The position numbers and the translations under genes are program-made. Source: Ceratodon purpureus (Eukaryota > Streptophyta > Bryopsida > Pseudoditrichales > Ditrichaceae). Taken from it: DNA of 64,000 nucleotides. Position 1 is the first letter of the stretch; each line of letters begins with the position of its first letter. The notes under the pieces are model-generated. The model had not been told where the DNA came from. It ran no database searches and saw only the letters and a list, made by a program, of their open reading frames with translations. The stretch covers positions 682,001 to 746,000 of the forward strand of contig CM026425.1 of NCBI GenBank assembly GCA_014871385.1, in the 5' to 3' direction. Of this stretch, positions 1,902 to 28,480 are shown piece after piece.

Positions 1902-2707
1902 ACAAAACATTATGAATTGTGGAACTTAGTTTTGACACCAAGTAGGCAATGCAAGAGCAAGATGTTTGGTCGCAACCTCACGTCATTCTACTTAAACATT
2001 ATAAAATTTTAAAAAATTTGAAAATGTCGTTTAATGTTTTGGGCCCTAAACAACATCAAAATGATCCAAAAAAGACTATTTTTTAATATTATCATTTTGG
2101 AAGAGCCATTATATATGATTTGGGCTTAAATTCTCCATTAAACACATTGCTCGATTTTGTCTCAAAAACAATATGAATAACAAAAATCTAGTTTCTTTAA
2201 AGATTGAAGTGTTCATGTGAGAGTCTTTAAAACCACCTTCATGAGATTTGGAGCCTCATTAAAAGTATATTTGGCCTGATACAACTTCTTGTGGCTCCAA
2301 AATTCTATCAAAATTAGCAGCAGTAGTGTAGAAATTCCTTCAAAAACCAAATTTCCAAAACAAATAAACTGATCTTAAGACGGTTTTTTGGAGCATTGCA
2401 TGAGGTGTGGGGACCCGCTCAAGTGTGATTGCCACCGATCAAACCTTTGAGGCCTTCGATTTGCATCAAAATCAGCAAGCAGTAGTATGAAAATCACTAC
2501 CAAAACAAAAATTCCCAATAAAATAAATTATTCATGAGTGAATTTTGAGAGCTTTGCATGAGGTGTGGGGACCCTTATAAGTGTGATCGCCACCAATCAG
2601 ACCTTTTGAGGCCTCCAATTTGCATCAAAATCTGCGAGCTATAGTGTAGGAATCATTTCCAGAACATAAATTTTCCAATAAACATCATATTCATTAAAAT
2701 GGGACAT
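1902..2707. repeat. left terminal inverted repeat
   Basis: About 800 bp matching the inverted right end. It contains two copies of a roughly 170-bp unit marked by GCATGAGGTGTGGGGACC and GCCACCGATCAAACC (about 2390 and 2560). Homology with the right end is lost just after ATTAAAATGGGAC near 2705. Confidence 0.75.
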
Positions 2708-3305
2708 TAACGCATTTGTGGGACTAAGATCCCTAGTTTCTAGGATGTCCCTTACTATGAGCTAAATCTCTTTCCTAGTCAACAATGAGCTAAATAATTG
2801 CTAACATTGAGCTAAGTTGATATTGCTAGCATTGAACTAAGTTAATATTGCTAGCATTGAACTAAGTTAATATTGCTAGCATTGAACTAATTGAGTTGGT
2901 GTAATCATTATTGTGAATTTTTTTCTTTTTTTCTTTTTTTTGAAGCAAAATTATTGTGAAGTTTTCAAGAAATTTGAGAAAAGACTAAGTGGCGTTTGTT
3001 AGTGTCTCACTTTCCACCAACTTACACAAGTAATGAAAAATAGGATCATGGATACAGTAGATCAAAATTCCATATTCATATTGAGCTCATTGTGAGCTAA
3101 AAGGACTGAAGAGACAATTTCCACCATAGTAAATGAGGTAGACAAACCCAGTGACAGTCAGGTTAAGTAAAAGGCAAACATTCCAACCATTACTATGAAA
3201 AAAATAAATATATCGAAACGATACAGTACAGTATCAGTATTTTTATTGGAAATATTAATAATAAATGAGCAATGACATGGTATAATTGAGTTCGGTACTA
3301 GAAAT
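2708..3305. other. subterminal spacer with TTGCTAGCATTGA tandem motif
   Basis: No gene is seen. Around 2800-2890 a 24-bp unit, TTGCTAGCATTGAACTAAGTTAA, is repeated about three to four times; it looks like a diverged relative of the AGCTCAC palindrome half-site. A further TTGAGCTCATTGTGAGCTAA copy lies near 3081. Confidence 0.5.
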
Positions 3306-4103
3306 CTAAACTATAGATTTCTTCCCTTCCTTTGCTTTCAGGTCCTCCAAGGCCTTCATTATGTCGCCTCTCCGCGAAACGGTCGTAGGGTATGATTCAG
3401 CGAAAACTGAAGTCTTTGTTTGTAGCCGAAGAATAGGATGAGCTAAGGAATCTCTCATTTGTCGCTTAAGTGTTGCTAGATCTGGACCTGTAGAAGAACA
3501 AGAACGGGTAGGCTGGAATCTAGATAATCGCGGGGGTTTGGGAGCAACAGTTGGCACTGTTGGTATTCCCAAGCGTGAAACATCACGTTCTCCTATATTT
3601 GGCTCACGGTTAGGCATGGTTCTAGAAATATTTCTACCTACCGACCTAGTCTCCAGAATTTGCTCACTGTGAACAAAAGGCTTATTGGCAATTTCTACCC
3701 TAAGAGGTAATATTTCAGGTGCAACAACCTCGTACAGTTGTCTTTGAGGGATCATAGACTTCTGAGGTGCGGGAGAAGTAGAACGTTCCCGCCTAGGTGT
3801 AAACCTCCCAACCGATTTCAAAGGGGAAGGTGACGACACTGTGATTCGTCCACCTACACTGCTAGGAGGACTGTTTACTACGTCTTGCTCCACATCTCCC
3901 CTTGAAAAATCTATAGCTGCAGAAGCAGCGTCTGTGGCAGAAAACAACAAGAAGGGCTTCGAATACTGTTGAACTCCGAGAGCCTCCCCTTCAGATATAG
4001 AGCACGTACCAACGAACTGCCCACTTGAAACATTCGACGTTAGGCCGAAAGAATCACCGAACCTGCAATCAGACCCACCAGAAATAGAGTGCAGTGGCTG
4101 AAC
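3306..4103 (-). CDS. terminal exon, disordered Ser/Arg/Pro-rich protein
   Basis: A 265-codon open stretch begins after a good 3' splice site (TTCTTCAG at about 4104) and ends at a stop at 3306. The peptide is rich in Ser, Arg and Pro (for example SPSPLKSVGRFTPRRERS), with a basic, weakly coiled C-terminus ending in KALEDLKAKEGKKS. No known domain is recognised and most of it looks intrinsically disordered. It is the most distal exon of the minus-strand cluster in the giant element. It may be the 3' end of an alternative transcript of the FCP1-like gene upstream, or a separate small gene. No ATG near its start makes sense, which agrees with it being an internal or terminal exon. An AGCTCACTGTGAGC palindrome copy lies just upstream, at about 4251. 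Confidence 0.45.
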   Translation of the reverse strand, partial: VQPLHSISGGSDCRFGDSFGLTSNVSSGQFVGTCSISEGEALGVQQYSKPFLLFSATDAASAAIDFSRGDVEQDVVNSPPSSVGGRITVSSPSPLKSVGRFTPRRERSTSPAPQKSMIPQRQLYEVVAPEILPLRVEIANKPFVHSEQILETRSVGRNISRTMPNREPNIGERDVSRLGIPTVPTVAPKPPRLSRFQPTRSCSSTGPDLATLKRQMRDSLAHPILRLQTKTSVFAESYPTTVSRRGDIMKALEDLKAKEGKKSIV

Positions 4104-4285
4104 CTGAAGAACAATTACACATCGGTAAGACAGGCAAATTAGTATTACGACAAATTGCAAACCTTACAAAATCCGTTTTCAACCGGTAGAGAAAAACAAT
4201 AACATTTACATAAACATTTACAAAAACATTTACAAGTTTGTCCATAGTTTAGCTCACTGTGAGCCACCGTCTTCTCAATCATTGT

Positions 4286-5080
4286 TCAATTTTGCCGAGG
4301 ATTGCTAACCCCGCAAACATCATAAACAGTACCCACATTCCTTGTAGAAACGGCCATTCCCTCTAAAATATGGTTGAATAGTGGATCATCGTTGGACATT
4401 GGGGGGACTCCTATTCTGTTTGACTCAACATAATTTCGAAGATTTCCATTAGCAACCACCTTGACCAAATTGGACAACCATGGAGCCAAAACTGACATTA
4501 GGTAGTCATCTTTGTCATCCTTTTCGATCCAGGACTTTAGGAAAACAGCATTGCCAGTCTCATTACAGATGCTTTTCTCCGGACTATCATCAATTAGAAT
4601 CGTGTTGTTCACGTTGTAGATACTACCCGCTCCAAAAAGGGTTGAAGAGAACGTTTTCAAAAATATAGGCTTATCTCCGTCAGGGTATTTCAAGTAGGTA
4701 CGGCGAGAAGTTTGAATTCGTTCGCAATCTTCCTGACTAAGAACAACCGAAGGCATGGGCAGCCCAGTGAAAAGATATTTGACAACATCCATCGCTGTCG
4801 AATTCTTCATTGAACTCCAGACCAAAATATTTGCGAAATCGTTCACAAATGCTATGAAATCCGAGAATCGGGGCCGAACATACACTGCCTTCGGTCCAAC
4901 AATAGTGGCGAACTTCGGACTATGAACAGAAAGGTTTATGTGGTTTGTCACTGAGTCCTTCAACCCAAGACGCCTCTCGACGCATTTACATAGTATACCA
5001 TTAATGTCCAAAACAATGTTCAGCCACTTCTTGGATGTTACACCCTTAAGACCTCGTGGAAACTGTGTAGAAGCTTCAGC
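4286..5080 (-). CDS. FCP1/NLI-interacting-factor-like HAD phosphatase domain (main exon)
   Basis: The exon begins after a splice acceptor (TTTTCCAG|GCTGAAG) and ends at a TGA at 4286, giving 264 codons. The pattern matches the FCP1-like HAD fold in order: a first-strand motif WLNIVLDINGILCKC (around 5020-4985), a mid-domain segment RPRFSDFIAFVNDF...LVWSSMKN matching the conserved FCP1 R-P...F...vwTs region, and a late acidic motif LIDDSPEKS (around 4600). Family members use D-x-D at the first motif for phosphoryl transfer. Here the second Asp is Asn (D-I-N-G), so activity is doubtful. In plants FCP1-like enzymes act on RNA polymerase II C-terminal repeats, but the substrate here is unknown. 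The frame joins the preceding exon in phase 0. It lies inside the giant transposon. Confidence 0.6.
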   Translation of the reverse strand, partial: AEASTQFPRGLKGVTSKKWLNIVLDINGILCKCVERRLGLKDSVTNHINLSVHSPKFATIVGPKAVYVRPRFSDFIAFVNDFANILVWSSMKNSTAMDVVKYLFTGLPMPSVVLSQEDCERIQTSRRTYLKYPDGDKPIFLKTFSSTLFGAGSIYNVNNTILIDDSPEKSICNETGNAVFLKSWIEKDDKDDYLMSVLAPWLSNLVKVVANGNLRNYVESNRIGVPPMSNDDPLFNHILEGMAVSTRNVGTVYDVCGVSNPRQN

Positions 5081-5115
5081 CTGGAAAATCAATAAAACAA
5101 AACAAATGGCGTTAC

Positions 5116-5330
5116 CTGTTGAAATGCAGATGGACGAAAAGGCGAGGAGAATTTGAACTTTTGATTTTGACAATTGGAACGCAATTCCACGTCGCTAACC
5201 ACAGATTTAACAGCAACCGGGCGGTGAACATGGTCAGTTGCTTTCAGCTGACCATCCATTGAAGCACACCAATTTAAACAAGTCAAATTCAGCAGATATT
5301 CAAATTCTTCTACTAATCAATGAAATTAAC
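5116..5330 (-). CDS. exon upstream of FCP1-like domain
   Basis: The open frame ends at a donor, CAACAG|GTAACG, in phase 0 with the FCP1-like exon (SAFQQ then AEAST). Its peptide has no recognised domain; it includes a Cys/His-containing stretch CQNQKFKFSSPFRPSAFQQ. The 5' edge is uncertain. AG sites near 5330 exist but do not join in phase with the acidic exon at 5952-5543, so this may start a separate gene or use another acceptor. A copy of the element's palindrome (GCTCACTGTGAGCTAAAT) lies directly upstream, at about 5341. Confidence 0.4.
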
Positions 5331-5542
5331 ATCTTCACTTTGCTCACTGTGAGCTAAATAAAATGCCACGATAGATTAACTTAAAATAATGAATATTAAA
5401 ATTTTATAAAATGTGTATAGTCACACTTACATATATGTAAATACAGTCACTTATCATTCGGCTAAGACCTCTACTTTAGAATAAGACAGTGGGGAAGTAA
5501 TACTCAGAGCTTTAAGTTGATATATATCTCAGAGGTGCATAC

Positions 5543-5952
5543 CTCGGGACAATCATCACTTTGCTGACTCTCCAGGTGAATCCTCTGAGCGTCTGGGAGA
5601 GAGAGACTTGCCCCTGGAGACTCCTCGTAGTCCACCAACTCTTCATCAACCGGATCGACAAGTGCTTCGGGTTCCACCAAACAGTCTGAGGGCCCTGAAG
5701 TCTCTTTTGGTGTAGGGTTGGCCGACAGGTTACCTCCTCCCTCCAGGTCCACCGTGGGGCTCGTTGCAGGTGTGACTGGGTTAACGGAGAATCCATCACC
5801 GCCACTACCAATGTCATCATCGTCATTTTTCGGCCCTGATGACATTGGAGTCATCGGTTTGCAAGGGCTCGTAATGACTGCGTCCGGAATCTCCTCTTCG
5901 ACCACAACGGCATTCTCCACCGTAGTATCCGCAGTGGCCAAAGCATCACAAC
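5543..5952 (-). CDS. acidic low-complexity exon of the ParB/methyltransferase-like gene
   Basis: The exon starts after TTATCCAG (5954-5953) and ends at CCCGAG|GTATGC (5543). The junction with the preceding exon keeps phase (AAA G joined to GT TGT gives Gly-Cys). It encodes a Glu/Asp/Ser/Pro-rich region (VVVEEEIPDAV, PKNDDDDIGSGGDG, EELVDYEESPGAS) with no known fold. It is probably a disordered linker or a tail recruiting partners. I am fairly sure it is an exon because of the phase-consistent join. Confidence 0.5.
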
Positions 5953-6461: not shown

Positions 6462-6551
6462 TTAGAGAACCATACATCCAGGTTTTTCATACTCGATAAT
6501 GCCATACTATCCATGTTTTCTAGATTAAATTTGTTACTATTTAGTCTTTAC

Positions 6552-7794
6552 CTTTAGGACTTTCAACTGCATCACTACAGGGCATCACAGTGGGCTTCAC
6601 GATGGCGGTCTCCTGGATTGGAGCAATGATTTGACCTCGCATCTGCAACAACATCAGACGCATTTCCTGCATCTCTTTATCCCTCTCCCGCATCTCTCTG
6701 TCCCTCTCCCGATCCTTCTCCTCCTGAATCTTGAGGAGACTCTCTGCCCTCTCCTTGGCCAAACGAGCCTCTTCAACAATAAGCCGAGTTGCCTCGGCTT
6801 CCCTTTCCCTCTTCTCCTCCTTCTTCTTTCTCTTCTCCTGGTTATACTCGAACCAGTCCACGTCCCTCTTCGAAACCGGTGCTGCCGGATGAGGTGCCTT
6901 CCCCGCAGCATTGAAGACTTCCTCCCCGTCATCAGGTACCAACTCCTGCCGGACAACTACAGGATGGACCACTGCTGTAGAGACGACAACAGGATGTACC
7001 ACCGGTGCCCTCGCTACAACTCTGGCCTCTGAATCACTTGGGTCTTCATCGCTGCCATCATCATCGGAGTCGCTGAGCAAAACCAACGGAGTCTCCGTAA
7101 CGGTCTTCACACTGCTCTCCCCGCCTCTATTGCCCTCTACAACATCGTCGGGAACTCCTTCATCCGCTCCCCCCTCCACGTTCTCCTCCTCTTCCATGTC
7201 AACATCTTTCGAAGTTGACCCACCGACTCTGATTTGAGCCTGCTGCTCTGACCCGAACTCCTGAACGAGGCGCCGACCTAGTATAGAGTTCTGTTGGCGA
7301 AACCTAGTCTCACGTGGTGAAGAATGACGGCTTAGTGGTGAGGAATTTAGCTCACTGTGAGCTAAACTTGATAACCGAGTATCTGGCTGAGGTGTGGTGG
7401 GCAAAGTCTCGATTCCAAGAGTCTCTTCGTCAAATCCTGCCCCAAGAGTCCCTTCAATCGGTTCCTCCTCCAGAGTATCGTCTTCTTCCTCTTCGACTAT
7501 CTCATCTGCCTCATCATCCGAACCCGATTCTACAGTGACGTTCCTTTCAAATTCATCACTCTCAAGAAACTGCTGCCTCTCTGGCATTGGCTCGTCCTCC
7601 TTCGGTAAGTCATAGATTGAATCCTCATGAATGAAGTCATTCATATCGAGGTGGGGCACTAGCTTAGCCATATCCTTGTAGCAGTTTTCGAAGTTGTGAT
7701 CAATAATCCCGTAATAAAACATACCGTAGATCTGGACAGAACTAACATACTTCATTAGACTGAAAATATAATGAAACATATAGCTCACAATGAG
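6552..7794 (-). CDS. acidic and coiled-coil exon following the methyltransferase-like domain
   Basis: The exon ends at CCTAAAG|GTAAAG (6552). Its first residues (IYGMFYYGIIDHNFENCYKDM) fit the segment that follows the SAM-binding loop in beta-class methyltransferases (a G-x-D/E strand followed by a helix with Tyr). After that come acidic repeats (EEEEDDTLEEEPIEG), a Ser-rich stretch and a long charged coiled coil (KRKKKEEKREREAEATRL to EMQEMRLMLLQMRGQI). One palindrome copy lies inside the coding sequence, at about 7352, and encodes SLAHSELN. The start is ambiguous. The best acceptor (TTTTCAG, about 7760) is out of phase by one base, and the in-phase AG (7795) lies inside another palindrome copy. 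Confidence 0.5.
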
Positions 7795-8003: not shown

Positions 8004-9332
8004 CCGAGCAGCTAACATGCATTTTGTTCCACTGAACACCCCCCAGAAGTTCTCGCCAGGTAAGCAAAATGTCTTCAACAGTTCGATGTAGAATTCCATC
8101 CGCAGCTCCCGAGCATTCAGTCGTAGGTGAGCTTCCTTGTACAATCCGTACACTGTGTAATAGTTTGTATTAGGAGCTTTATAGACTGACTTCACCTTCT
8201 TTCTGTCGTCGCTCCTACCTGCACGCACCAGAAATACTAGGTACAACTCATCCTTCCCTGAGTTTCGAGTAGTATGATCATTAAGGCGTTCGTTCTTCGC
8301 AGGGATGTATCTAGATGGAATCACCTCGTATTGTTTCATGTACTTCTCTCCGTATGCTATTGCTTGGGCATTTCTATGCTGTGAAGCACTAATCCAAACC
8401 CAGACTTCTGGATCGGAGACAGCTGGAGATTTCAGAAGAAGAAGCTTCTTCATAAACGGCTTGAAGAATGGGTTCTCGACAGTGTCATCCTTGGTGGAAT
8501 GGCCCGGGGTATCTCGCAAATCCAGTAATGCCAAACCAAGTCTCGGTTCACTCTCATAGCGCCACTGCTGCCCGAACTCCATTTTAACAGCATTGAATAA
8601 CCGCGTACGAATCCTTCCTTTCGGGGCAACGAAATTACCTTTCACCTCCAGGAACTTCTTGAAGAACGGAAAAACATTGGGCCATTTATCTGTCAAATCA
8701 CGTGACCTCTTAAACATCCCCTTCTTCTCAGCACGAAAACCATAAAATCCCTTATCTGGTCGGTCTAGAAGGACATTCAACGTCGCGCTGGAGATACCGT
8801 GTTCATCCTTCCACTCGTGCCACTTCTCTCGGTTAATGGTCATGTCCTTGTTGCAAAGGCCAAGAGAGGGCATAATGTCATGGAGTTCTTGGATGCATAT
8901 CCGCTTTTGCTTCTTCTTGGCCATCTAGTCGCCAGATGAGTAGTGATGTGGCAACACCGTGCCACGAGTTTTGTGTACGGATACCTTGGGGTATTTATAC
9001 TGCCAATTCTTCGTCAGCATCAGTAAGTGGGTTACCAATGACCTCGTCTCCTCCTCGGTCATGAAGCCCATACCACGGAAGAAGCTGCGTTGGAGCTGAA
9101 ACGACTTTCCGCCTTTGAAGCCCTTCTTCTGGTTGAACCTCTCGCAAGTCTCCGGATCAATCAACTCTCCCGTGCTGTGCTTCGTAATGAACTCCTTCCA
9201 CAGATTAAAATGATCGTCGGGAGCGGTGATGATAACCATCTCGTTCTTAATATCAGCCGGCCCCTGCACTTGCTTTCCGTCCTTGCTGGGGTCGATGTTC
9301 TGGAATCGCTTGATAAGCAACTCGACGAATTT
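8004..9332 (-). CDS. beta-class DNA-methyltransferase-like exon with an in-frame TAG
   Basis: The exon runs from TTTGTAG|AAATTCGTC (9332), in phase 0 with the upstream ParB-like exon, to GCTCGG|GTAAGT (8004). The frame is open for 443 codons except for one TAG at 8927-8925, directly followed by ATGGCCAAG in the same frame. Downstream of the stop, the segment DPEVWVWISASQ...YLVFLVRAG resembles the middle strands of beta-class N6-adenine/N4-cytosine methyltransferases. The end, ELLKTFCLPGENFWGVFSGTKCMLAAR, resembles their C-terminal SAM loop (usually PGD..LDPF.GSGTT..AA). The usual Asp and third Gly are missing, and no clear DPPY is seen (LLDLRDTPG is the only candidate), so it may be inactive. 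The homology is my reading of motifs and needs structure comparison. Confidence 0.5.
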
Positions 9333-9747: not shown

Positions 9748-11198
9748 CTGATATTTCTTGGTGTTGTATAGGGCCCCATTATGGCGGTTGTTGTCCTTCA
9801 TATTAGTAGGTTTATCTTGGCTTATCCAGACATTCCGCGCACTAAGTATGTTAGTACCCCATGTCGGTTGCGCGTGATTAAGATGGTTGCACATATTATA
9901 GAACTCCGAGATTCTGACCAGAATCATAGCTTCTTTGCTCCACACAATGTATGCGTCCCAGTACTTGAGCTCTTTCTTCCTCTTCTCCCCGCAACCTGAT
10001 ATCTGTAACTCCTGCGAAGCTACTATACTATGTTGACCATTGATAATCATAAATTTCCCATCTTTAATCTCTCCCCAAGACTTCGGCTTCTCTGGCAGGA
10101 GTTCTAGTTTGTCTGTCACTGGCATCAGACAGACCTTTTGTCTCTGGTTAATATCTCCCATCCTTACAAGCTCTTCTTTAACCGATTTAACGATCTCTCT
10201 CTCTAGGTCTCGGACGATATACTCATCCTTGGCAATGTGGCACTGTTTCACATTAACTGGGAACGTGGTCTTCATGTCGAAGACATATGCGGATTCACAA
10301 TCATCCCAGAATGTCTTCTGTATCTCTGTGAATTTCTGATAATCCGGCACGTCCTTGTCCTTAGCCTTGGCCTTCGTCTTTTTTGTTTCTTCTGTCTGCG
10401 TCAGACCAGATCCAGAGCTCCCTGCCTTCCCTGTCTGCTTCCGTTTCTTCCTTGAAGTGGAGGCTTCTTGAATATCACTGGCCGGGCGCTTGCTTCCACG
10501 TGAACGCGAAGGTGCTGGAATTGGTGATGCGCGTGGGTGTTGAATGCTCCCTCTTGATGGAGCAGCGGAGTCCTCGCGCACAGCAACTAATGCTGAGCTC
10601 TGTAACGGAACTGTGCTGATCTTGGAGGCGGATTTGTCAGTTATATAGTGAGTAAGTGTCAAGAAAACTCGATTCAGCCTACGCCCAAAGGATACGGCAC
10701 TCAACTGTGTTCCATCTTCATTTTTCCAGGCGGTCTTCTCTAGGTCGAGTATAAGGTCTTCGCATGATGTTCCAATCATGCTTTTAATTAGCGGATCCCC
10801 GTCAAATTGAGCATGTTCAGCACCGACTTCGATTACTAACGAGTGGACGTGTGACAAGTCACACTCGGAATCTCGGTCTACAGCACCGACCACGAGTACA
10901 ATGTACTTCCCATGATGTTCCTCGATTACCTTCAGACGCTCATGTACAGACAGGTCCAGATACCTAGGACTGTTCTTTTCTTTACGCAAGATTCTCACAA
11001 ACTTGTGGTACCGGGACACGGCCAGAGACCAACCCTCGACTTCGGACTTGAACTGCCACAGGGATCCGTAGGAATTCTCCAACGACGGCTCAATGAAAGG
11101 AGTCGCTGGATCGGGGTTCTTGAACCTCTCTAGGAACGGATCGAGGTGACTCATGTCGTATCCATGTGGCATTAGCACTGGGGTAACCATCGTCATCT
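9748..11198 (-). CDS. ParB-like domain exon (first coding exon of the ParB/methyltransferase-like gene)
   Basis: The ATG at 11196 lies two bases after a splice acceptor (GATTTCAG), so an untranslated or short coding exon must lie upstream. The exon ends at AAATATCAG|GTAAGTG (9748) and joins the next exon in phase 0. The N-terminal 200 residues have no recognised fold. A Lys/Ser-rich linker with RKKRKQTGKAG follows. From about residue 320 there is a ParB-N-like pattern: VRDLEREIVKSVKEEL, then a strand and the motif GKFMIINGQHSIVASQ near residue 380 (coding 10060-10022). In ParB/sulfiredoxin-like proteins this is the nucleotide-binding DGxHR motif; here it reads NGQHS. ParB domains fused to methyltransferases are known from phages and bacteria, which makes this arrangement in a plant-like element notable. 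Confidence 0.55.
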
Positions 11199-12150
11199 GA
11201 AATCATTCACACAGAACTTTATTAGTTTAACGAGTTTCTCGATTATGTATCTCTTGTATCAATCCACATCAATCATCAACATGGAGAATCAGACAATATG
11301 ACCAGTATGAATGAAATTAGCTTACTGCAATGGAAATATTGAAGGTTGAGTGCAAGATTTAGCTCACTGTGAGCTAAATTCGTACAAATAAGTATGCATC
11401 ACTACTCTCAAAGTTCTCTAGCTTTTAGTAGATCTCAAATCAAATTAGCCACTGTTAGTACATAACGTCTTGAGTTAGGCAAAAGTCATCAAAGTTTATC
11501 GTATAAGTGCATTGGATTTAGCTCACAGTGAGCTAAAGAGGTCATAAGGGCATATAAATTAGTTTATTGAGACCAAACTTATCGTTTAGGTTCATATGTT
11601 AGCGTACATTGATCTTTATACGGAAAGTAACACTACGTTTTAGCTCACAGTGAGCTAAATCCACTAAGTTCCACTACGGTTTAGCTCACTGTGAGCGAAA
11701 TCTTGTAAGGTTCACTAGTATTTAGCTCACAGTGAGCTAAATCCACTAAGTTGCACTACGATTTAGCTCACTGTGAGCTAAATCTGTTAAGTTGCAGTAG
11801 AATTTAGCTCACAGTGAGCTAAATCCACTAAGTTGCACTAATATTTAGCTCACTGTGAGCTAAATCTTCAAAGTTGCACTTGAATTTAGCTCACAGTGAG
11901 CTAAATCCACTAAGTTGCACTACGATTTAGCTCATTGTGAGCTAAATCTGTTAAGTTGCACTGGAATTTAGCTCACAGTGAGCTAAATCCACTAAGTTGC
12001 AGTATTATTTAGCTCACTGTGAGCTAAATCTTCAAACTTGCACTTGAATTTAGCTCACAGTGAGCTAAATCCACTAAGTTACACTACGATTCAGCTCACT
12101 GTGAGCTAAATCTTCTAAGTTTCAGTACAATTTTGCTCCACTGAGCTAAT
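11199..12150. repeat. AGCTCACWGTGAGCT palindrome array, about 41-bp period
   Basis: From 11640 to 12135 the palindrome recurs every 40-42 bp, about twelve copies, with two outliers at 11361 and 11518. The centres alternate between CACAG and CACTG, and the spacers alternate (CCACTAAGTTGCACTA, then TCTTCAAAGTTGCA or similar), giving an 82-bp higher-order unit. The array lies immediately upstream of the splice acceptor that precedes the ParB-like exon, so it probably occupies that gene's 5' intron. Confidence 0.9.
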
Positions 12151-14319: not shown

Positions 14320-16670
14320 GAATAAAAAGCGAAAAAGAGGAGATAGATAGGGAGAGGAATAGAAGGATGAAAAACCAACGGAAAGGATGGATGACCAATA
14401 AAGGAATAAAAAAGATGAAATGATAGAATAGGAGACCAATAAAACATTAAGAAAATATTAATATTAGAAGATCAATGGTAGAAGAATAGAAGAATTAAAA
14501 GAAATTAAAAAAAAATGAGATAGATGGGGAGGGGAATAGAGTGATGAAAAACCAACGGAAAGGATGGATGACCAATAAAAGAATAAAAAAGGTAAGAGGA
14601 TAGAATAGGACTTTTTCATAAAAAAAATATGAAGAAAATAAAACTATTTTGAAATCAATGGTAGAAGAATTGAAGAAGTAAAAAAAAAAAAAAAAATGAT
14701 GGATAGGGAGCGGAATAGAAGGATGAAAAACCAACGGAAGGGATGGATGACCAATAAAGGAATAAAAAAGGTAAAATGATAGAATAGAAGACCAATAAAA
14801 TATTAAGAAAATAATACTATTTGGAAATCAATGGTAGAAGAATATAAGAACCAAAAAAAAAAAAAAAAAAAAAAAAAAAGATATAAGAGAGGCGAATAGA
14901 AGGATGAAAAACCAACGGAAAGGATGACCAATGAAGGGATAAAAAAGGTAAAAGGATAGAATAGGAGACCAATAAAATATTAAGAAAATATTGATATTAG
15001 AAAATCAATGGTGAAGAATAGAAGAATTCAAATAAATTTAAAAAAATGATGGATAGGGAGCGGAATAGAAGGATGAAAAACCAACGGAAGGGATGGATGA
15101 CCAATAAAGGAATAAAAAAGGTAAAATGATAGAATCGAAGACCAATAAAATATTAAGAAAATAATACTATTTGGAAATCAATGGTAGAAGAATACAAGAA
15201 CCAAAAAAAAAAAAAAAAAAAAAAAAAAAGATATGTAGAGAGGCGAATAGAAGGATGAAAAACCAACGGAAAGGATGACCAATAAAGGGATATAAAAGGT
15301 AAAAGGATAGAATAGGAGACCAATAAAATATTAAGAAAATATTAATATTAGAAAATCAATGGTGAAGAATAGAAGAATTCAAATAAATTTAAAAAAATTG
15401 AGATAGATAGGGAGGGGAATAGAAGGATGAAAAAACAACCGAAAGGATGGATGACCAATAAAGGAATAAAAAAGGTCAAATGATAGAATAGAAGACCAAT
15501 AAAATATTAAGAAAATAATACTATTTGGAAATCAATGGTAGAAGAATAGAAGAACAAAAAATAAAAATAAAAAATAAAAAATATATATATAGAGAGAGGC
15601 GAATAGAAGGATGAAAAACCAACGGAAAGGAGGGATGACCAATAAAGGTATACAATAGTTAAAAGGATTGAATAGCGGACCAATAAAATATTAAGAAAAT
15701 ATAGAAGGATGAAAAACTGAGGGAGAGGATGGATGACCACTTAGAGGATAAAAAAGGAAAAAACATAGAATAGAAGACCAATAAAACATTAAGAAAATAC
15801 AATTATTAAAAAATCGATGGAAGAAGAAGAGGAATAAAATAAGAATATCAAATAAAAAAAAACAAGTTAAGGAGAGGAATATAAAGATGAAAACATAATG
15901 GAAACGGTGGATGACCACTCAAAGAATCAAGAAGGAAAATATAAAGAATAGAAGACCAATAAAACGACTAGAAAATAGTAAAATTTAAAAATCATTTGAA
16001 GAATAAAAAGAAAGGGATGAAATAAAGAGAAAAAGAAATAGAAGGATGGAAAACTAAGAGAAAGGATGGATGACCAATAGAAGAATAAAAATGTAGGAGG
16101 ATAGAATAGAAGACCAATAAAATATTTCGAAAATGATAATTGTAAAATGGTCAATGGAAGGATAACAAGATTAGAAAAGGCTGAAACGGTGAGAAAGAGG
16201 TAGAGAAGGATGAAAAATTGTGAGTCGGGAAGGATGACTAGTAAACCACAGAAATAAAGAGATATACTACAAAGGATCCCAATCGCAAAATAGAAAGAGA
16301 ATAGGATAGAATAGATGCCCAATATAATAATTAAAGTGAATTTAAAAAAATAAAAATAAAATAAATGGAAGAATAGTAGACGAAAAAAATTTGATAAAAT
16401 AGAGAGGGAGAGGAATGGAATGTAAGGTTGGATGACTAATGTAAGAACAACTGAAAGAGAGGAAACTATAATCGATGACCAACGGATTAATAAATTTAGG
16501 ATAATGGAATACAATAGATGACTAATAAAATAAAAAATAAAATTAAAAAGGAAGAGATTATAAGAATAAATACTTAATAAAATAGGGTGAGAGACAAATA
16601 GAATAATGATAAATAATTCGACACAAGTGATGACCAAAAATTCAATAAAAGAATTGCAAAAATTAAACAA
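14320..16670. repeat. purine-rich satellite, about 175-180-bp monomer, about 350-bp dimer
   Basis: Monomers are marked by GGATGAAAAACCAACGGAA followed by GGATGACCAATAAAGG and AGACCAATAAAATATTAAG. Marks occur at about 14365, 14541, 14721, 14902, 15071, 15253, 15425 and 15609, then decay to about 16.6 kb. Adjacent monomers differ, but units about 350 bp apart (14709 and 15059; 14890 and 15241) are nearly identical, so a dimer was amplified. A tracts of about 25 sit between some monomers. Long minus-strand open frames here are low-complexity artefacts. Confidence 0.9.
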
Positions 16671-18919: not shown

Positions 18920-19325
18920 GTGAGTGTCAATGCATACAGACTTGTTGGTACCGTTTCAAATTCATTCGGTGATTGCCTTTGTGAATACCTTAGGTTCTGT
19001 AATCATTGTATGGAATTGTGTTGGACCTATTTTGGTTTCTGTTTGGTATGTAAGCGTATACCGTAGGTTGTAATGATCTGGATTATAAATCAGATTCAAG
19101 GGATTAGTGAGTGTACCCAATTGCTCTCATAATTAATGTACGAATTCGTTGATTAATTTCCTAAATTTTCGGGAAATTCATTACGAGTTTTACTTACATA
19201 TAACTTTCAATGCTGAATTCTTCTTATTGTATTTGACATATATATGTATTGCTTCTTGCGATCTAAGTTTGACACACTGGGCGCTGAATCTATGTATACG
19301 AAAGTGGTGTTTCCGCTGAATTGGA

Positions 19326-20340
19326 GTTCGTTTACAGTGGGCTAAATTGGAATTAGCTCACAATGAGCTAAATTGGACTTAGCTCACTGTGAGCTAAATT
19401 GGACTTAGCTCACTGTGAGCTAAATTGGACTTAGCTCACTGTGAGCTAAATTGGACTTAGCTCACTGTGAGCTAAATTGGACTTAGCTCACTGTGAGCTA
19501 AATTCGACTTAGCTCACCGTGAGCTAAATTCGGCTGAACTCACTTTGAGCTAAATTAGACTTAGCTCACTGTGAGCTAAATTGAACTTAGCTCACTGTGA
19601 GCTATGTTGTATTTAGCTCACTTTGAGCCAAATCTGGCATACCTCAGAGATAGCTCAATTTCATTTACCTCACAGTGATTTAACTTTGATTTAGCTCACT
19701 GTGAGCTAATTTGGAGTAGACTAAGAGTATTAGGATATGACTGAGGCAGTTAACGAAGACATGCAAATTGGTTTATAATATGCTGTGTTTATGGTAAAAC
19801 AAAAGTAAAGTACCCTGTGATACACTACGGTTCAGTATATACAAAGAAGATACTGCTCATAATCAATTAAGATGAGTTCCCAAATAAATTGTATTGCACG
19901 CCAACCCAAAATAAATTAGGTTGGAGGAAGAAGTATATGTTAATAGCAGAAACTGCTGAATATGAGATTGAATGTGTTTTTTAAACGTGTAGTCAGACGT
20001 CATCTGGTCGTAGTGATTTTAATTAAACTTAGCTCATAGTGAGCTGAATGAATTTAGTTCATAGTGAGCTAATTTGAGACTAGCTTATTGTGAGCCAAGT
20101 AATCGTTCGCCTATTCCTGTTATCTTTCAATTCAACAACAGTAAGCTCTCAACAACTTTAGTCAATACGGGATAATGGTAATCTAACATACGGGGAACAT
20201 GATACCTGGATTGAAGATTGTTCATTAAGTTTTAGTAATTGGGTGAATAAGCTACATACATGAGCAGTCGACTATTATTGTATTTTTAAACCTCCATGTG
20301 AAGTACAGAATTTAGCTCACAGTGAGCTAAATTATATAAG
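19326..20340. repeat. AGCTCACTGTGAGCT palindrome array, about 28-bp period, plus dispersed copies
   Basis: From 19326 to 19720 about thirteen copies recur every 28-29 bp with the spacer AATTGGACT. Early and central copies are near perfect and later ones decay. Isolated copies follow at about 20033, 20056, 20082 and 20312. The array lies in the likely 5' intron of the plus-strand transposase-like gene. Confidence 0.9.
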
Positions 20341-20568: not shown

Positions 20569-23388
20569 ATGGAGTCATTCTCCGGCGCTGACGAGTTTCT
20601 GGCACCACAGTTTCCAACCTTACCGGACGATGTCGTTACTTGCGAAGGATTGCCTCGGTCGTCATGGATCACAAAAGCTGTTACGCTAGTGAACGAGTAT
20701 GGCTCTATTGTTGCCAAAGGAATTTGCCACAGCATCGACTCAGACCTTGTCATCGGAAGTGATGGAGCTCCGCTTGGAGATGATCAAGTAGCTGTTCAGA
20801 TTGCAGAGTCCTTGTGTGAAGATGATGTACCATCGGAATGGATGTTTTCATTACGTGCTTGGCATATCCGGAATGTATTCGTAAATGGTGCATCTCTCTA
20901 CGACCACGATCAAGTGGCTATCTACAATGCTGCTGTTTCTTCAATGCGGGGGAGGAAGCGTGTAGGAGTACGACCTTATGATAGTTCCAGAGTCCAGAGG
21001 GTTCCAAATCACCTTCCAAAGGCAGAGATGAAGTTATCTCCTGAGGCTATCGCTTCTGTATCCAGCGAAAGATGTTGTAGGTTGAACTGTGTTCAGTTTT
21101 ATCCACGACTAAAGATTGAAGCCCTACGAAATCAGTTCTGGAGAGATGGCACTGTGTACTTCAAGAAGCACACTCAACTTGATGTTCATAGGCAAATGCA
21201 CACTGACGTCGCTGGGAATCGCGTCGTTACACTTGAAGGTATTGATGTATGTCAAGTTGCTTGGTACAAGATACTTGGAGTATCGCGCACTAGCTTTTTC
21301 CGGCACCAAAGCCTTGCTGATGAAGGTGTAAGAGCAGAGCATCATGGAAATCTGGGGACTAAAAAGCCTCGTACTTACACCGTTCAAGCAAAAGCAACCT
21401 TGGGTTGTTTGCTTGAGAGCGTCGCAGATCAGATGCCCCATAGATCAAGAACCTTGGAGAATGGAGAGAAGGTAGTGTCAATGGCCCTTCCACCGTCATG
21501 GAAATGGAAAGACTCTTTGCCCCAAGTGAATATAGTGAACGGTCAACTGGGGCTGCGGAAGGTTTCCCTCTCAGGGATCAGCAATATCAGGCGGCGATCC
21601 TTCCCAGAGTTTTCAGTGAAGAGACCAGGAGATAATTTTGCACGTTGCGGTACATGTGATAAACTAAAATCGTTGAAATTAGCCAGTACGAAAGGTTCAA
21701 GAGCTGCGGATTTATGGGGAATGAAACTCCAGGAACACCTCGCTGCGCAACGAGCGCACAGAGAGTTGTACTACGCGAATCGATACAACTCTATCACAGA
21801 GCCTGACAATGTTGTCACTGTGATTCATGATAAAATGGATCACTCCAAAACTGCGTCCCCTGCGTACTCTCACAAGAACAAGGCCACTGATTCCTATTTT
21901 AAGTTACCGTTGCAAGTGACTGGAATGATTGCTCACGGACATGGTGATATACGATATGCTCACTATGGTTTGGATATATATCCTAGTGACTCAAATCACA
22001 CCGTAGGGAGTCTTGCTAAGCTCTTACGTGACCTTGAGTCTACACCAATGGCATGTTCAGGAGAGTTGTTTTCTGGTGATCGCATTGCACCTCTCTTTGA
22101 GGCCGTTTTGAATGGAGCCGACATTTGCAGGTCATCCCTTCCTCCGATTCCAAGAACAGTTGTCCCAGCAAAGCCTCTTCCTCCAATTCTAAATGTCTAG
22201 CTAGACAATGCCTGCTCTGATAATAAAAACAGATATATGTTGTGTTTTTTTTCTCTTCTTGTGGCTCGAGGTATCTTTCGAGAGGTTTATGTGAACTTCA
22301 TGCTTGTTGGACATACGCATGATGATATTGATGCTCTGTTTGGGCGTTGGAGTATGAAGCTTAGGAAAAATGACTACCCTACGATACCTTTGCTCATGAA
22401 ATCGTTTATGGATGCCGAATCGGAGCCTGTTATCCCTCACTTTATTGAAGAAGTGCCAGATTTCAAAGGATTTATTGAAGGTCATATTGCTTCAGGAGAT
22501 GAGGCTTTGGAAGGACATACCAATGCACAACAATTCAAATTCTATAAACATGCCAATGGATGGCCGATGATGCAGTATAAGATTGTTTGCACCGATAGTG
22601 ACTGGCTTCCAAAGGAGAATGGTGGCATTAAGTTGTGGAGTGAGCTTGCTGATGGAAGGCCAAGCTTGCCATTAGGGAGTCCAAATGCATTACCAGCGCA
22701 GTGCATGAAGAACAAGGACGAGATCGTTAGGGGAATCGGAGGTTTTATCAATCATTGGGATACCATGGCCAATGAAGACTTGTCAGGCGAGTTTCGAAGA
22801 AGAAATGAAGGGATTTCACAGTATTGGAAGGGGGTGCATCAGGCACTTACAGAGGATATTATATCGCCTTCTACGTTGAGGGATGGGTTCTGGCCGCTAT
22901 CTCGGTTTGCTCCGTCAGCTGAAGATGAGTACCTTGATGACGGCACCGTGCGTGACGCTTTCGGTATAGATGAGCCCTTCATCGGGCAACACCGTGATAG
23001 ACCAAACGCATCATTTCGGGTGGCTCGTGATGTTTTTGAGGGATATTTTCTTATTGTACGCCCTGCTGATGATGATTCACGACCCTTCTGGGTAGCTAGA
23101 GCAATGTCGAATCCTTTTGAAGACTCAATTAATCATCCCAATGCTATTAAAGTCCAGTACTGGAAACCAGTGTCTACCAAGGTAGATGTCGTAGAGTGTT
23201 ATGTCGGATGGAACTCTGGAAGATCCTTCCTATGGGAAGCAGATGAGGATCACACCCCTGAGTGGATTGATACCGATTCACTTATGACTAGTTGGAAATC
23301 AAAAATTAAACCTGGGAATCTAAATCCAAAAGTTCGTATTCCTGTACTTCAAAGAAATGTTATCTCAAATAGTTTGGTGAGGTTCTAG
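20569..23388 (+). pseudogene. large DDE-type transposase-like gene interrupted by one TAG
   Basis: An ATG at 20569, after acceptor TTTCCAG (20534), opens a frame of 939 codons to the TAG at 23386-23388. It is broken only by TAG at 22198-22200, and both halves are in the same frame. The N-terminal part has a Cys-rich segment, SSERCCRLNCVQFYP. The middle has a CGTCDKL zinc-type motif. The catalytic-looking core has HDKMDHSK (about 21828), LDNACSDNKNRY (22201) and VGHTHDDIDALFGRWS (about 22300), which suggests an RNase-H-like D-D-D/E nuclease. I recognise this as the plant and protist family usually annotated DUF7869. The stop falls directly before the second acidic motif and removes half of the core unless it is read through. 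It is the best candidate for the element's own transposase. No intron is needed inside the frame. Confidence 0.7.
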
Positions 23389-23394
23389 ACCCTT

Positions 23395-23818
23395 GAAGTA
23401 TAATTCATTTAGCTCGATGTGAGCTAAATACTACGGTGCTCTGAAGTTTAAGTATAATTCATTTAGCTTGATGTGAGCTAAATACTGCAGTTCTAGGAAG
23501 TTCAAATAGAATTTATTTAGCTTGATGTGAGCTAGATACTACGGTGATATGAAGTTAAAATATAAATCATTTAGCTCGATGTGAGCTAAATACTTCGGTG
23601 CTCTGAAGTTTAAGTATAATTCATTTAGCTTGATGTGAGCTAAATACTGCAGTGCTCTGAAGGTAAAGTATAAATCATTTAGCTTGATGTGAGCTAAATA
23701 CTACGGTGCTCTGAAGTTTAAGTACAGTTCATTTAGCTTGATGTGAGCTAAATACTGCAGTGCTCTGAAGGTAAAGTATAATTCATTTAGCTTGATGTGA
23801 GCTAAATACTACGGTGCT
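23395..23818. repeat. TTTAGCTTGATGTGAGCTAAAT tandem array, about 59-bp period (left part)
   Basis: About eight units, each with an imperfect version of the element palindrome (TTTAGCTTGATGTGAGCTAA) and the spacer TACTGCAGTGCTCTGAAGTTTAAG. The array starts directly after the transposase-like stop codon and is interrupted at 23818 by a solo LTR. Confidence 0.9.
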
Positions 23819-25579
23819 TGTGAGCTGACTTTTTTTGAGAAAAGTCCTTTTCAGCAAAAACAGTGTAAATAGGACCAAGTTACCATGTCAATTTGAAATC
23901 CAAGTAGATAGTGGCTGTAGAAATCTGGTTGAGAGTCAAATGGACAATAGTGTAGAATTCAGGGGACATGACCCTACCTAGAGACACGACTCGTCAAATT
24001 GACTCTACGTACAGGCGCACCTTTTAGAAATTAAGGCATAACTAGGAATTAAGGAAGAAGAAAGAATTACTTCACCACACCACACAACACTGTGTGAGTG
24101 ATAGTCACATTATGTAAAAAATATAAAAATAGAATTCCATTGTCTAATTGATTGTCAACTTGACTCTGAGTAGCTCACTGTATAATTGAATCACAATGCT
24201 CTTTGTCAATTTGAACTATAGCCTCGATGCACAGTGTATTAATCTGCAGAACTGTAGAATCATAATGGAAAACTGGAGCAAGCTGATTACTGTCTAATTG
24301 ATTTGCAAAGCTTACTGTCAAATTGAAACTGCAGATCTGCTGAACAGTGAATTTATATGTAGTCCATGGGAGATAGAATGAATAGTTTGATCAAAGGGCT
24401 ACTGTCTAATTGACAAATTGAATTCATATTGCTTGCTGCATAATGTCTAGTTAACACTGGTCAAATGGACAAGATGGTGGTTCGGTATGCATCCATGGGC
24501 ATGCATACATTGTCAACTTGACTTGCATGGACCATGTCTAATTGACACAGTGGAGAGTTGGTGAGAGTTACAGTGAATGTGGTGACTCACACTGGATACT
24601 GTTTATTTGAACACTGGATACTGTCTATTTGAAATCAAAGATATTGATGGAGCACAGTGAACAGTGAGGGAATTTGTCTATTTGAACTCAGAACGAAGGA
24701 AAGAGTTACTGAGTGAATAGAAAATAGAAATTATGGAAAATAAACACAACAGTTTGTCCAATTGACAATTGCATTGTTGTGAATGGGAATTATGGAGAAT
24801 GAGAGTTCCATGTGAGTACTGGAACAGTGAAGTGAGTATTACTTGATAGTCTTTTAAATTAGATTGGCCATCTGAAATAGAAGACTGAGAATGACTTAGA
24901 ATTAATGGAAGCCAGATTGAGTACATTGATGGATAAAAGTGACATTAATTATTAAGGAGTGATCAGCCTTAGTGATTATTAGTTCTCATTATAGTAAAAC
25001 TTGAATGTATTCAATTGGAGTATAGTGCAGTCATTGTAATTGAGTAATACAATTGAGAAGTATAGTTGTGATGAATGGTAGAGTTGGAGTATGATTGAAT
25101 GTGAATGAGTAGACAGTGATTACATGTCTATTTGAAATGCGATGGATGGGAGGAAAAAGATGAAGACAAGCAAGGAGTTGCTTGAGATAAGTTAATCTAT
25201 CATAACATATCCCAAAGCATCATTCATAGGCATAAATAGGTTGAACACTAGATTCTAACCTAGTAATGAATGAACTTGCATATGCATAATAAATGCATTG
25301 TCTAATTGAACTTGGAAGGGAGTGATGGCAATAAACCGAGAGATGGTACTTGTCAATTTGAACTCCCATTACCCTTGAACCAATTGAGAGTTTGGATTAC
25401 TTGGGTTTTATGTGACTTGGGGTAATTAAGACATTAGAGTTATAAAGAGATTCTTTTAAGGAAATACTTTGCATTCTATACATTCTTTACTTACTACAGT
25501 GACCTTTAGTTACGTTAAAAGCTAAACGAAAAGACCTATTCCCATGACTTACCACTATTTGTAAATTTTACCAATTACA
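23819..25579. mobile_element. solo LTR (1,761 bp) flanked by GTGCT duplication
   Basis: The insert begins TGTGAGCTGAC and ends CCAATTACA (TG...CA ends). It is flanked by GTGCT on both sides (23814-23818 and 25580-25584), and it splits a tandem array whose consensus reads straight across the joined flanks. No coding sequence is seen. Inside are more than a dozen copies of TGTCWAWTTGA-type motifs. The absence of internal retrotransposon genes fits a solo LTR left by LTR-LTR recombination. GTGCT is also part of the array unit, as expected for a target duplication. Confidence 0.7.
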
Positions 25580-25960
25580 GTGCTCTGAAGTTTAAGTACA
25601 ATTCATTTAGCTTGATGTGAGCTAAATACTGCAGTTTTAGGTAGTTAAAGTATAATTCATTTAGCTTGATGTGAGCTAAATACTGCAGTGCTCTGAAGGT
25701 AAAGTATAAATCATTTAGCTTGATGTGAGCTAAATACTACGGTGCTCTGAAGTTTAAGTACAATTCATTTAGCTTGATGTGAGCTAAATACTGCAGTTTT
25801 AGGTAGTTAAAGTATAATTCATTTAGCTTGATGTAAGCTAAATACTATTGTGCTATGAGTTAAAGTTTACTTCATTTAGCTAGATGTGAGCTAAGAACTA
25901 CGGTGCTATGAAGTTTAAGTATCTTTATTTAAGCTTGATATGAGCTGAATCGTAGGACAA
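25580..25960. repeat. 59-bp palindrome array (right part)
   Basis: Six to seven further units of the same TTTAGCTTGATGTGAGCTAA array resume after the solo LTR and decay towards 25960. Confidence 0.85.
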
Positions 25961-26579
25961 CTTCTTTGTATAATGAAGTTTGTCATATTAGGAGGATAAG
26001 TCGTTACTATTTGTATGTTGTAAACGTTATTGGATTATATTATGTGCACTATGATTTTTAGACAAACTGCTGTGATATGAGGGCAGAAACTGTCTAATTT
26101 GTACATCATTTTTAAGCTTCAAGGTTGTGAAGTTTAATATTAATTATAAATTCCAGACAGTATACTGCTCACATGCAGTTCAAATATGTTGTGTTGTCGT
26201 GGAAGACTTTATATTCTCTAATTTTATTATAACAGAGTCATTTCCCATTCATGAGAACATCGTGCAAATTGCCATTCTACATTTGTTGGAATTGTTCTAG
26301 CAACAGTCATTATGAGGAATTAGTTGACTCTGAGCTAACCCTGGAACCTCTCACACTTTACAGTGACATGTATGATATTTTGACATGCTTAAATTGCTTA
26401 AATTGCTTAAAATGTCCTATTATGAAGCAATAAGCAACAATAATTTATATTGCAACTCCTACTGTATGATGCAATGTGTAAAAAATGGTTGATTAAAAGA
26501 ACACTGTATGGATTTTTGGTCCCAATATAATGAAAGTCCCATTATAGTTGATACAATTTTAGGTCTATTTTAAGCACTA
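25961..26579. other. AT-rich spacer
   Basis: No gene is seen. A short triplication of TTAAATTGCTTAAA-like sequence lies near 26390-26410. Confidence 0.4.
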
Positions 26580-28480
26580 TATTAATTTGGGACTTCCAAA
26601 AGTCCCATTTTAATGAATATGGTGTTAATAAAATAAAATGTTCATGAGTCTGTTTTCGGAGCATTGCATGAGGTGTGGGGACCCGTTCAAGTGTGATCGC
26701 CACCGATCAAACCTTTTGAGGCCTTCGAATTGCACAAGAATCAGCGAGTTGTAGTATAGAAATTTCTCCAAAAACATAAATTCCTGAAAAAACAAAATGT
26801 TTATGAGGCGGTTTTGTGGAGCATTGCATGAGGTGTGGGGACCCCTTCAAGTGTGCTCGCCACCAATCAAACCTTTTGAGGCCTTGAAATTGCATCAAAT
26901 TCAGCGAGCAATAGTGTAGAATTTACCTTCAAAACAGAATTTCCCGAAAAAATAAAATTTTCATGGAACAGTTTTTGTGAGCTTTGCATGAGGTGTATGG
27001 ACCCCCTCAACTGTGCTCGGCACAAAGCAAACTTTATAAGGGCTCCAAAACCTCCTTAGAATCACCAAGTAGGACCATCAAAATGAATGTTGTTAGCAAA
27101 TTTCCAAACAATCAAGAGGCTTTTCTGCTGCAACTTACAGGGTATTAGGGACGCCTTGGAGTGTTTTTCCCACCAAAAACACCTCATGCGATTCAACATT
27201 CTCTGAAAAACGAGTCATTTACTACAATATTGCTTTCAACACTTCTTGCGAGCCTTCACCTAGCTGAATTTGATGCAATTTCAAGGCCTCAAAAGGTTTG
27301 ATCGGTGGCAAGCACACTTGAAGGGGTCCCCACACCTCATGCAATGCTCCACAAAACCGCCTCATAAACATTTTGTTTTTTCAGGAATTTATGTTTTTGG
27401 AGAAATTTCTATACTACAACTCGCTGATTCTCGTGCAATTCGAAGGCCTCAAAAGGTTTGATCGGTGGCGATCACACTTGAACGGGTCCCCACACCTCAT
27501 GCAATGCTCCAAAAACAGACTCATGAACATTTTATTTTATTGGAAAATTTATGTTCTGGAAATGATTCCTACACTATAGCTCGCAGATTTTGATGCAAAT
27601 TGGAGGCCTCAAAAGGTCTGATCGGTGGCGATCACACTTATAAGGGTCCCCACACCTCATGCAAAGCTCTCAAAATTCACTCATGAATAATTTATTTTAT
27701 TGGGAATTTTTGTTTTGGCAGTGATTTTTATACTACTGCTCGCTGATTTTGATGCAAATCCAAGGCCTCAAAGGTTTGATCGGTGGCGATCACACTTGAA
27801 GGGGTCCCCACACCTCATGGAATGCTCCCAAAAATCGTCTCTTGAACATTTTAATTTTTCGGAATTTTTTTTTTTTGGATTGATTTCTACACTACTACCT
27901 GTTAATTCTGATTCAATTCCAAGGCCTCAAAAGGTTTGATCGGTGGCGAGCACACTTGAAGGGGTCCCCACACCTCATGCAATGCTCTCAAAAACCGATT
28001 TATGAACATTTTATTTTTTTGGGAATTTCTATTTCAGGAGTGATTTCTATACTATAGCTCGGTGATTTGATAGAATATTTGGAGCCACAAAAAGTTTTAT
28101 CAGGCCAAGTATACCTTTAATGAGGCACTAAATCTCATGAAATTTGTTTCAATGACCTTCAAATGAACACTTCAATATTTAAAGAAATTAGATTTTTATT
28201 AATCATATTGTTTTTAAGACAATACGGACCAATGTGTTTAATAGAGAATTTAGGCCCAAGTCATATATAATGGCTTTTACAAAATGATAATATTAAAAAA
28301 ATAGTCATTTTTGGATCAATTTTGATGTTGTTTGGGGGCCCAAAACATTAAACAACATTTTCCAATTTTTTAAAATTTTATAATTTTTAAGTAGAATGAC
28401 GTGAGATTGCGACCAAACATCTTGCTCTTGCATTGCGTGCTTGGTGTTATAACTAAGTTCCACAATCCATAATTTTTTGT
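26580..28480. repeat. right terminal inverted repeat, expanded and folded back
   Basis: The outer part (about 27540-28480) is the inverted copy of the left repeat. The inner part carries extra copies of the 170-bp GCATGAGGTGTGGGGACC unit. The block 26640-27000 is inverted relative to 27250-27530, and the two arms are almost identical (63-codon frames in each differ at only four residues), which forms a hairpin around a 250-300-bp loop. The inner edge, ATGAATATGGTGTTAAT (about 26610), again matches the inner edge of the left repeat. Confidence 0.75.

Follow-up and report, generated by a model that had tools for sequence, protein, structure and literature searches.

We report a giant DNA transposon in the moss Ceratodon purpureus, located in a 64-kb stretch of C5 of the 362.5-Mb assembly (GCA_014871385.1, contig CM026425.1, positions 682,001 to 746,000), which we call the window and in whose coordinates positions are given below. 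The element occupies 2681-26626, was inserted there as a single unit and has moved recently. It carries a transposase gene that is under constraint and, on the opposite strand, an accessory gene predicted to encode a fusion protein, and it is furnished with palindromes that are private to its family and that stand, in the window copy, outside the coding sequence. This arrangement suggests a Sola-like cut-and-paste transposon whose accessory fusion protein may read its own palindromes for anti-silencing or self-recognition, a reading to which we give an even chance.

Limits and recent movement of the element

The element, its ends and the host DNA that surrounds it are as follows.

2681-26626, no strand assigned: the transposon itself, 23,946 bp, delimited by the shared ends of other copies and by the empty site
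2681-2705, plus strand: left terminal inverted repeat, 25 bp, 24 of 25 positions identical to the right one
26602-26626, minus strand: right terminal inverted repeat, 25 bp
2677-2680: left copy of the target site duplication AATA, 4 bp
26627-26630: right copy of the target site duplication AATA, 4 bp
1902-2680, plus strand: left part of a dispersed host inverted repeat, not part of the transposon
26631-28480, minus strand: right part of the same host inverted repeat, not part of the transposon

To read the ends, 30 loci were cut out among the 106 transposase rows found in the genome. The results show that in 23 of the 24 other transposase loci with a readable right end, this end falls exactly at position 26626 (at locus L021, the match breaks five bases before it), and that beyond this point the 23 loci carry 22 distinct, unrelated flanks, one of them common to L019 and L020. 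The left end fell at 2681 in 9 of the 12 stretches fetched where left ends were expected; among the remaining three, L039 and L047 were without the end and the match at L048 stopped at 3037. Both ends were seen in ten copies, including that of the window, and nine of these are bordered by identical 4-bp duplications (AATA in the window, then AATA, TTTG, CACA, CTTC, TATA, CTAG, CATG and ATGT). In the tenth copy (AATT), a duplication is compatible if the last bases of the right end were altered. The nine other paired copies are ~21.6-26.3 kb long, judging from their end coordinates, and show 0.06-1.07% divergence over their first 5 kb; the element thus moved recently. The longest copy, ~26 kb, has three near-identical transposase frames in a row (G000:C6:84407546-84413354) between shared ends, with one CACA duplication.

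A first-pass annotation of this DNA had proposed a 26.6-kb transposon spanning 1902-28480 and ending in inverted repeats of 0.8 and 1.9 kb. Such repeats do exist around the element, with inverted arms at 1902-2046/28336-28480 (93%), 2079-2301/28078-28300 (87%) and 2322-2682/27536-27896 (92%). A genome search with 1902-2700 gave at least 117 matches (best 38 of 52 candidates scored), many of which form close inverted pairs, 0.75-5.4 kb long, and no other inverted pair ~26 kb apart was found among the matches listed. At L002, L003, L004 and L006, similarity to the left part stops at 2682-2694 and matches starting at 26627 come next, which identifies the host repeat as dispersed and devoid of transposon genes. 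Tandem units within the repeat blur this junction, and a comparison with the joined window flanks, lacking the element, shows it cleanly: L004 matched at 198 of 200 bases with no gap, and L003, L007 and the overlapping L002/L008 over all 200 bases, ungapped, at 97.5-98.5%. An ungapped, exact empty site is therefore present in four distinct places (L003, L004, L007 and L002/L008), in addition to a match at L006 with one gap (96.5%) and a partial one at L005. The flanks of the host repeat, 402-1901 and 28481-29943, are common to several of these loci, and the host repeat must therefore itself be part of something larger.

The 26.6-kb unit with long inverted ends is ruled out by these empty sites, by the gene-free copies of the repeat and by the ends of the other copies at 2681 and 26626 with different flanks, and it retains virtually no probability; the 0.8- and 1.9-kb repeats are real but are not the ends of the element. 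Within the narrower limits, the earlier proposal of mobility as one unit holds, since full-length copies with other flanks, target duplications and empty sites were all found, and it was also correct to see here a giant transposon of the plant DNA type that pairs a DDE/D-type transposase-like gene with a second, unusual one.

Related tandem units, ~160 bp by eye, make up the host inverted repeat. Most of its matches listed are on C6, and at G000:C2:4436990-4444212 its inner units form a long array running in one direction.

Genes and palindromes of the element

The gene parts of the element, which confirm the divergent arrangement noted in the first-pass annotation, are listed here in the order of transcription for the accessory gene.

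20569-23388, plus strand: transposase gene (Pfam DUF7869), one long frame, with an in-frame stop at 22198-22200 in the window copy
9748-11196, minus strand: accessory exon 1, which belongs to a conserved family and has an INGQHSI motif, the sole ground for calling it ParB-like
8004-9332, minus strand: accessory exon 2, called methyltransferase-like on its motif only, with an in-frame stop in the window copy
6552-7731, minus strand: accessory exon 3, which finishes the methyltransferase-like motif and continues into acidic and charged stretches
5543-5952, minus strand: accessory exon 4, low-complexity linker
4286-5080, minus strand: accessory exon 5, FCP1/NIF phosphatase-like domain

The DDE-type transposase-like gene that had been predicted is indeed present, divergent from the second gene, as a single frame of ~939 aa that matches Pfam DUF7869 at E 1.3e-32. 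An NCBIfam search with the transposase alignment gave weak matches only, and no paper on DUF7869 was found in the open-licence literature. The gene is multicopy, with at least 106 rows in the genome, among which are intact relatives (P0038, 96% over 713 aa). The best 105 of 1143 transposase, 85 of 590 ParB-like and 130 of 861 FCP1-like candidates were scored, and every copy number given here is therefore a lower bound. We found 101 related proteins, including five named from Physcomitrium patens with 46-53% identity. Across 37 transposase sequences (36 of the 101 relatives and that of the window), 30 columns are invariant, and aspartates are invariant at 421, 424, 474, 546 and 588; on sequence grounds, Asp 421, 546 and 588 could form a DDD triad. 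Comparison of ten intact copies over the second half of the gene, restricted to copies without a stop in that stretch, gave a dN/dS of 0.04-0.09 in the seven with dS >0.25, and values of 0.13, 0.27 and 0.80 in the remaining three, which are nearly identical pairs with very few changes. The transposase is thus under constraint. We infer that the DUF7869 protein is the enzyme that cuts at the 25-bp ends and moves the element by cut-and-paste; with its 4-bp duplications and short inverted ends, the element looks like a member of the Sola superfamily.

The accessory gene is predicted to encode a 1,720-aa protein from five exons separated by four GT-AG introns, in one frame save one stop. It would be a single fusion of ParB-like, methyltransferase-like and FCP1-like parts, a gene model of which we are less certain than of the transposase. 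The exon 1 product has 37 relatives and a conserved INGQHSI stretch, which resembles that of ParB/DGQHR proteins, with S standing where ParB has R. No ParB match was found in Pfam or NCBIfam for 24 members of the exon 1 family (23 of the 37 relatives and that of the window). The motif GVFSGTKCMLAARIYGMFYYGIID, which resembles the glycine-rich motif of methyltransferases, spans the intron between exons 2 and 3, and profile searches gave no methyltransferase match for three relatives or for the spliced piece. Searches with the ParB-like and methyltransferase-like parts in Pfam, NCBIfam and PHROGs yielded weak matches to unrelated families, and PDB sequence searches gave weak matches to unrelated chains only, one of them at E 0.014; in the part-library combinations that were run, these libraries lent no support to either part. 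In contrast, exon 5 matches Pfam PF03031 (FCP1/NIF) at E 9.4e-14 and TIGR02251 at E 3.2e-9, under the curated cut-off of the latter, and the FCP1-like part is the only one of the accessory protein with profile support. The ParB/methyltransferase gene with an FCP1-like frame proposed from the first reading exists as a gene, and its FCP1-like part was upheld, but its other two labels lack profile support. The textbook phosphatase motif is DxDx(T/V), and the FCP1-like part reads DING in its place, so that it may be an inactive phosphatase. A phage origin of the ParB-like protein was considered and rejected, since a tblastn search of 50,697 phage records found nothing similar. After the FCP1-like exon, on the same minus strand, 3306-4163 holds a 285-aa open frame, possibly a further exon or gene, for which no Pfam or NCBIfam match was found.

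We grouped the transposase loci by amino acid identity to the window copy into family A (at least 83%), an intermediate locus (69%), family B (56-58%) and family C (50-54%). A ParB-like frame lies upstream of the transposase on the opposite strand at 45 of 52 loci listed for family A, at the 69% locus (1 of 1), at 10 of 12 for B and at 2 of 40 for C, where one of the two matches probably belongs to a neighbouring A copy. Within 40 kb, 60 ParB-like/transposase pairs were upstream-opposite, none upstream-same, one downstream-opposite and one downstream-same (105 of 106 transposase rows, the second piece of one copy being dropped, and 75 of 87 ParB-like rows, the 12 dropped being further pieces of broken copies). 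For the FCP1-like frame, the upstream-opposite position was found at 44 of the 52 loci listed for A, not at the one intermediate locus, at all 12 for B and at 24 of 40 for C, and pairs within 50 kb were upstream-opposite in 91 cases, upstream-same in two and downstream-same in three (105 of 106 transposase and all 131 FCP1-like rows). Since these counts cover the best-scoring candidates, an absence is weak evidence. The FCP1-like frame stands beside A, B and C transposases and therefore looks like a core component rather than incidental cargo. Family C, which makes up 40 of the 105 transposase loci listed, includes many open frames of ~955 codons and may have been recently active too. From its gene prefix, C6 is very probably the V chromosome, and the genome thus male; 39 of the 52 family-A copies listed are on C6, which accounts for 110.5 of 362.5 Mb, a concentration that bears on the growth of moss sex chromosomes.

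Each family has its own palindrome, and the arrays found in the window are listed after their counts. The palindromes read TTTAGCTCAC-W-GTGAGCTAAA in family A, TTATCCTCGA-S-TCGAGGATAA in family B (read from one copy, ahead of its ParB-like gene) and TTTAGCTCGA-S-TCGAGCTAAA in family C (eight exact copies in one stretch at the expected transposase start). All three are 21 bp long, with 10-bp arms and one central base, a form that would be expected of the binding site of a dimer. The genome contains 1146 sites for A (19-bp form), 151 for B and 2293 for C, and none for each reversed control. In the 64-kb window, all 53 palindrome A sites with up to 2 mismatches lie within 1902-28480, and all 57 with up to 5 mismatches within 2681-26626, so that the remaining 40,054 bp have none; when the element was shuffled 20 times, each shuffle contained at most one site. 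The first-pass annotation had noticed this private palindrome family, which is indeed confined to the element, but had made it stop at 1902 and 28480 rather than at the true limits. Nine other left-end stretches likewise contain 65 palindrome A sites in 49,955 bp inside the element and none in 40,045 bp outside.

11361-12150: palindrome cluster upstream of the accessory gene, array spacing 41 bp
19315-20335: palindrome cluster upstream of the transposase gene, array spacing 26 bp
23396-23818: array of altered palindromes downstream of the transposase, spacing 54 bp
25576-25950: second array of altered palindromes, spacing 54 bp

Of the 57 sites, 14 precede the accessory gene within 1.0 kb and 17 precede the transposase within 1.4 kb; 15 follow the transposase (13 of these at more than 2 mismatches), 6 fall in the four accessory introns, 4 lie at the left end and a single one is in the 7,983 bp of coding sequence, so that 56 of 57 are non-coding. 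The palindromes are thus family-private and, in the window copy, placed outside the coding sequence. Palindrome A is retained, with different array spacing, in one copy of an 88% subfamily whose transposase synonymous sites are near saturation (dS ~1.3-1.5). At two copies, family B sites are clustered upstream of each of the two genes, and elsewhere they occur singly. Near the family-C transposase at C1:299 kb, there is one upstream cluster, a second ~7 kb further and more sites up to 313 kb; these clusters lie near C1:302-313 kb, and an FCP1-like frame is found at C1:314.6 kb. In the middle of the window copy, at 14342-15702, a strongly AT-rich and purine-skewed stretch contains a 350-bp tandem array and holds no palindromes.

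Proposed self-recognition and its alternatives

The presence of a different palindrome in each related family hints at how a mobile element might recognise DNA of its own kind. We propose that the DUF7869 transposase would cut at the 25-bp ends and insert the element by cut-and-paste, giving the 4-bp target duplication, and that the accessory fusion protein would bind the 21-bp palindromes of its own family, beside both genes and in introns. Once bound, the fusion protein would mark or open the DNA of that family only, and marked copies would stay expressed despite host silencing, as occurs, with different proteins, for VANC of the Arabidopsis VANDAL elements, which are Mutator-like. In its broader form, the proposal is that giant Sola-like transposons of mosses would have a VANC-independent self-recognition, in which the fusion protein reads a family-private palindrome, protein and palindrome diverge together and each family activates or marks its own copies. 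We advance this broader form tentatively, at somewhat less than an even chance. Recognition might possibly operate through RNA polymerase II or through DNA methylation at the palindromes.

Several points weigh against this reading. The splice sites of the accessory gene were picked to preserve the frame, and not from transcripts, and the first acceptor chosen for exon 3 broke it; the ParB-like and methyltransferase-like labels rest on short motifs, without profile support in the libraries searched. The window copy has one stop in the transposase and one in the accessory gene, and three of the ten dN/dS values, from near-identical pairs, say little. For palindromes B and C, the reading comes in each case from a single stretch in a single copy, and some family B palindromes are single and away from known copies (for example C1:3586188, C1:6637306 and C2:3671757), perhaps as short derivatives or host-captured sites. 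Finally, the palindromes of family C have no established ParB-like partner among the matches listed, the FCP1-like frame being found at 24 of 40 loci, and it is mainly for this reason that the transposase is a serious candidate for the palindrome binder. The palindromes would then be bound by the transposase itself, or act as operators for both promoters, and the accessory protein would do something else. This explanation, which we consider rather unlikely, accounts for the family-C copy with its palindrome array at the expected transposase start in a family with a ParB-like frame at 2 of 40 loci, and for the sites on both sides of the transposase gene in the window. However, a transposase must bind at the very ends, yet only 4 of 57 sites are in the left-end 1.6 kb and the last right-hand array ends at 25950, ~0.7 kb short of the right end; nor would binding by the transposase alone lead one to expect sites in each of the four accessory-gene introns.

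It is improbable that the second gene is cargo captured from the host that plays no part in the element, and that the palindromes are passive repeats. The FCP1-like domain belongs to a eukaryotic protein family and tandem repeats expand easily, as such a capture would have it, but the FCP1-like frame is kept beside three transposase groups, two of them only ~50-58% identical to that of the window, the palindrome is retained, with changed array spacing, in a subfamily with near-saturated synonymous divergence, and 56 of 57 sites avoid coding sequence. A role akin to partition or replication, in which a ParB-like protein would load at parS-like palindromes, spread and aid segregation, clustering or copying, strikes us as very improbable. 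The palindromes are similar to parS in being palindromic and clustered, and the INGQHSI motif resembles that of ParB/DGQHR proteins; against this, the nine frames scanned with Pfam contain no ParA-like or replication domain, the motif has S for the R of ParB, no ParB profile matches, and an integrated element needs no partition.

The fusion-protein reading can be set beside known elements. The nearest precedent is Sola1-1_Ec32 of Ectocarpus, a 21.5-kb Sola-1 element with a ParB-like and DNA methyltransferase gene opposite the transposase; its authors raise the possibility that proteins of this kind attach to the transposon that encodes them and modify it (PMC12477816). The moss element is similar in size and, like the giant Sola-1, has its accessory gene on the strand opposite the transposase, but it differs in its host, in an accessory protein predicted at 1,720 rather than 1,104 aa, in the FCP1-like C-terminal part, in its many near-identical copies and in the family-private palindromes that precede one or both genes (compared with the available text of PMC12477816). 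The earlier remark that no described plant element was known with this cargo should thus be moderated, given the ParB-like/methyltransferase gene of the Ectocarpus element; of the FCP1-like part and the palindromes, we found no mention in the available text of that paper, the stem "palindrom" occurring 0 times in its main text (PMC12477816). According to the available text of PMC10741241, Sola elements have 4-bp duplications, terminal inverted repeats of 11-1124 bp and a DDD transposase, are reported from Physcomitrella and are mostly 2-9 kb long, with some above 15 kb. By this description, the moss element is like Sola in its 4-bp duplications (seen directly in nine of ten copies and compatible in the tenth), its short inverted ends (25 bp, 24 identical) and its invariant aspartates for a possible DDD, and unlike most Sola in its size of 24 kb (PMC10741241).

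VANC binds short, family-specific motifs, often tandem repeats, that lie in introns, in intergenic and upstream DNA and in terminal non-coding parts and differ between related elements, and it causes loss of DNA methylation (PMC5735166). The moss element shares with VANDAL the family-private arrays of non-coding motifs, whose positions relative to gene parts are those of the window copy, and the accessory gene beside the transposase, but its proteins are different, and VANC motifs are 8-9 bases long as against 21-bp palindromes, the stem "palindrom" occurring 0 times in the available text (PMC5735166). Because its duplication is 4 bp and not the 7-12 bp of the Mutator type (in the available text of PMC10741241), the moss element is not a VANDAL member but a possible analogue only. 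In size class, it is comparable to the giant DNA transposons Polinton/Maverick, Teratorn and large Helitrons, as far as these are described in the available text of PMC6431247. Polinton, Teratorn and Helitron were each considered as identities and found no support, since the nine Pfam-scanned frames lack domains of a DNA polymerase, a herpesvirus or a Helitron helicase.

What we consider new is the FCP1-like fusion, the family-private palindromes and the moss host with very recent copies, none of which we found in the open-licence literature. If the proposal is true, the palindromes would be the missing target of the ParB/methyltransferase proteins, for which binding to and modification of the transposon that encodes them have been proposed, and a VANC-like solution would have arisen in another protein family. 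Mosses are haploid and genetically workable plants, and copies with as little as 0.06% divergence would make self-recognition testable in them. Should the accessory protein bind the palindromes, these would also be simple reagents for sequence-specific recruitment in chromatin.

Other features of the window

Outside the transposon, 43519-48047 contains retrotransposon frames with gag, reverse transcriptase, RNase H and integrase zinc-binding domains, and 52296-52922 a minus-strand frame with a Pre-SET motif (E 7.7e-8).

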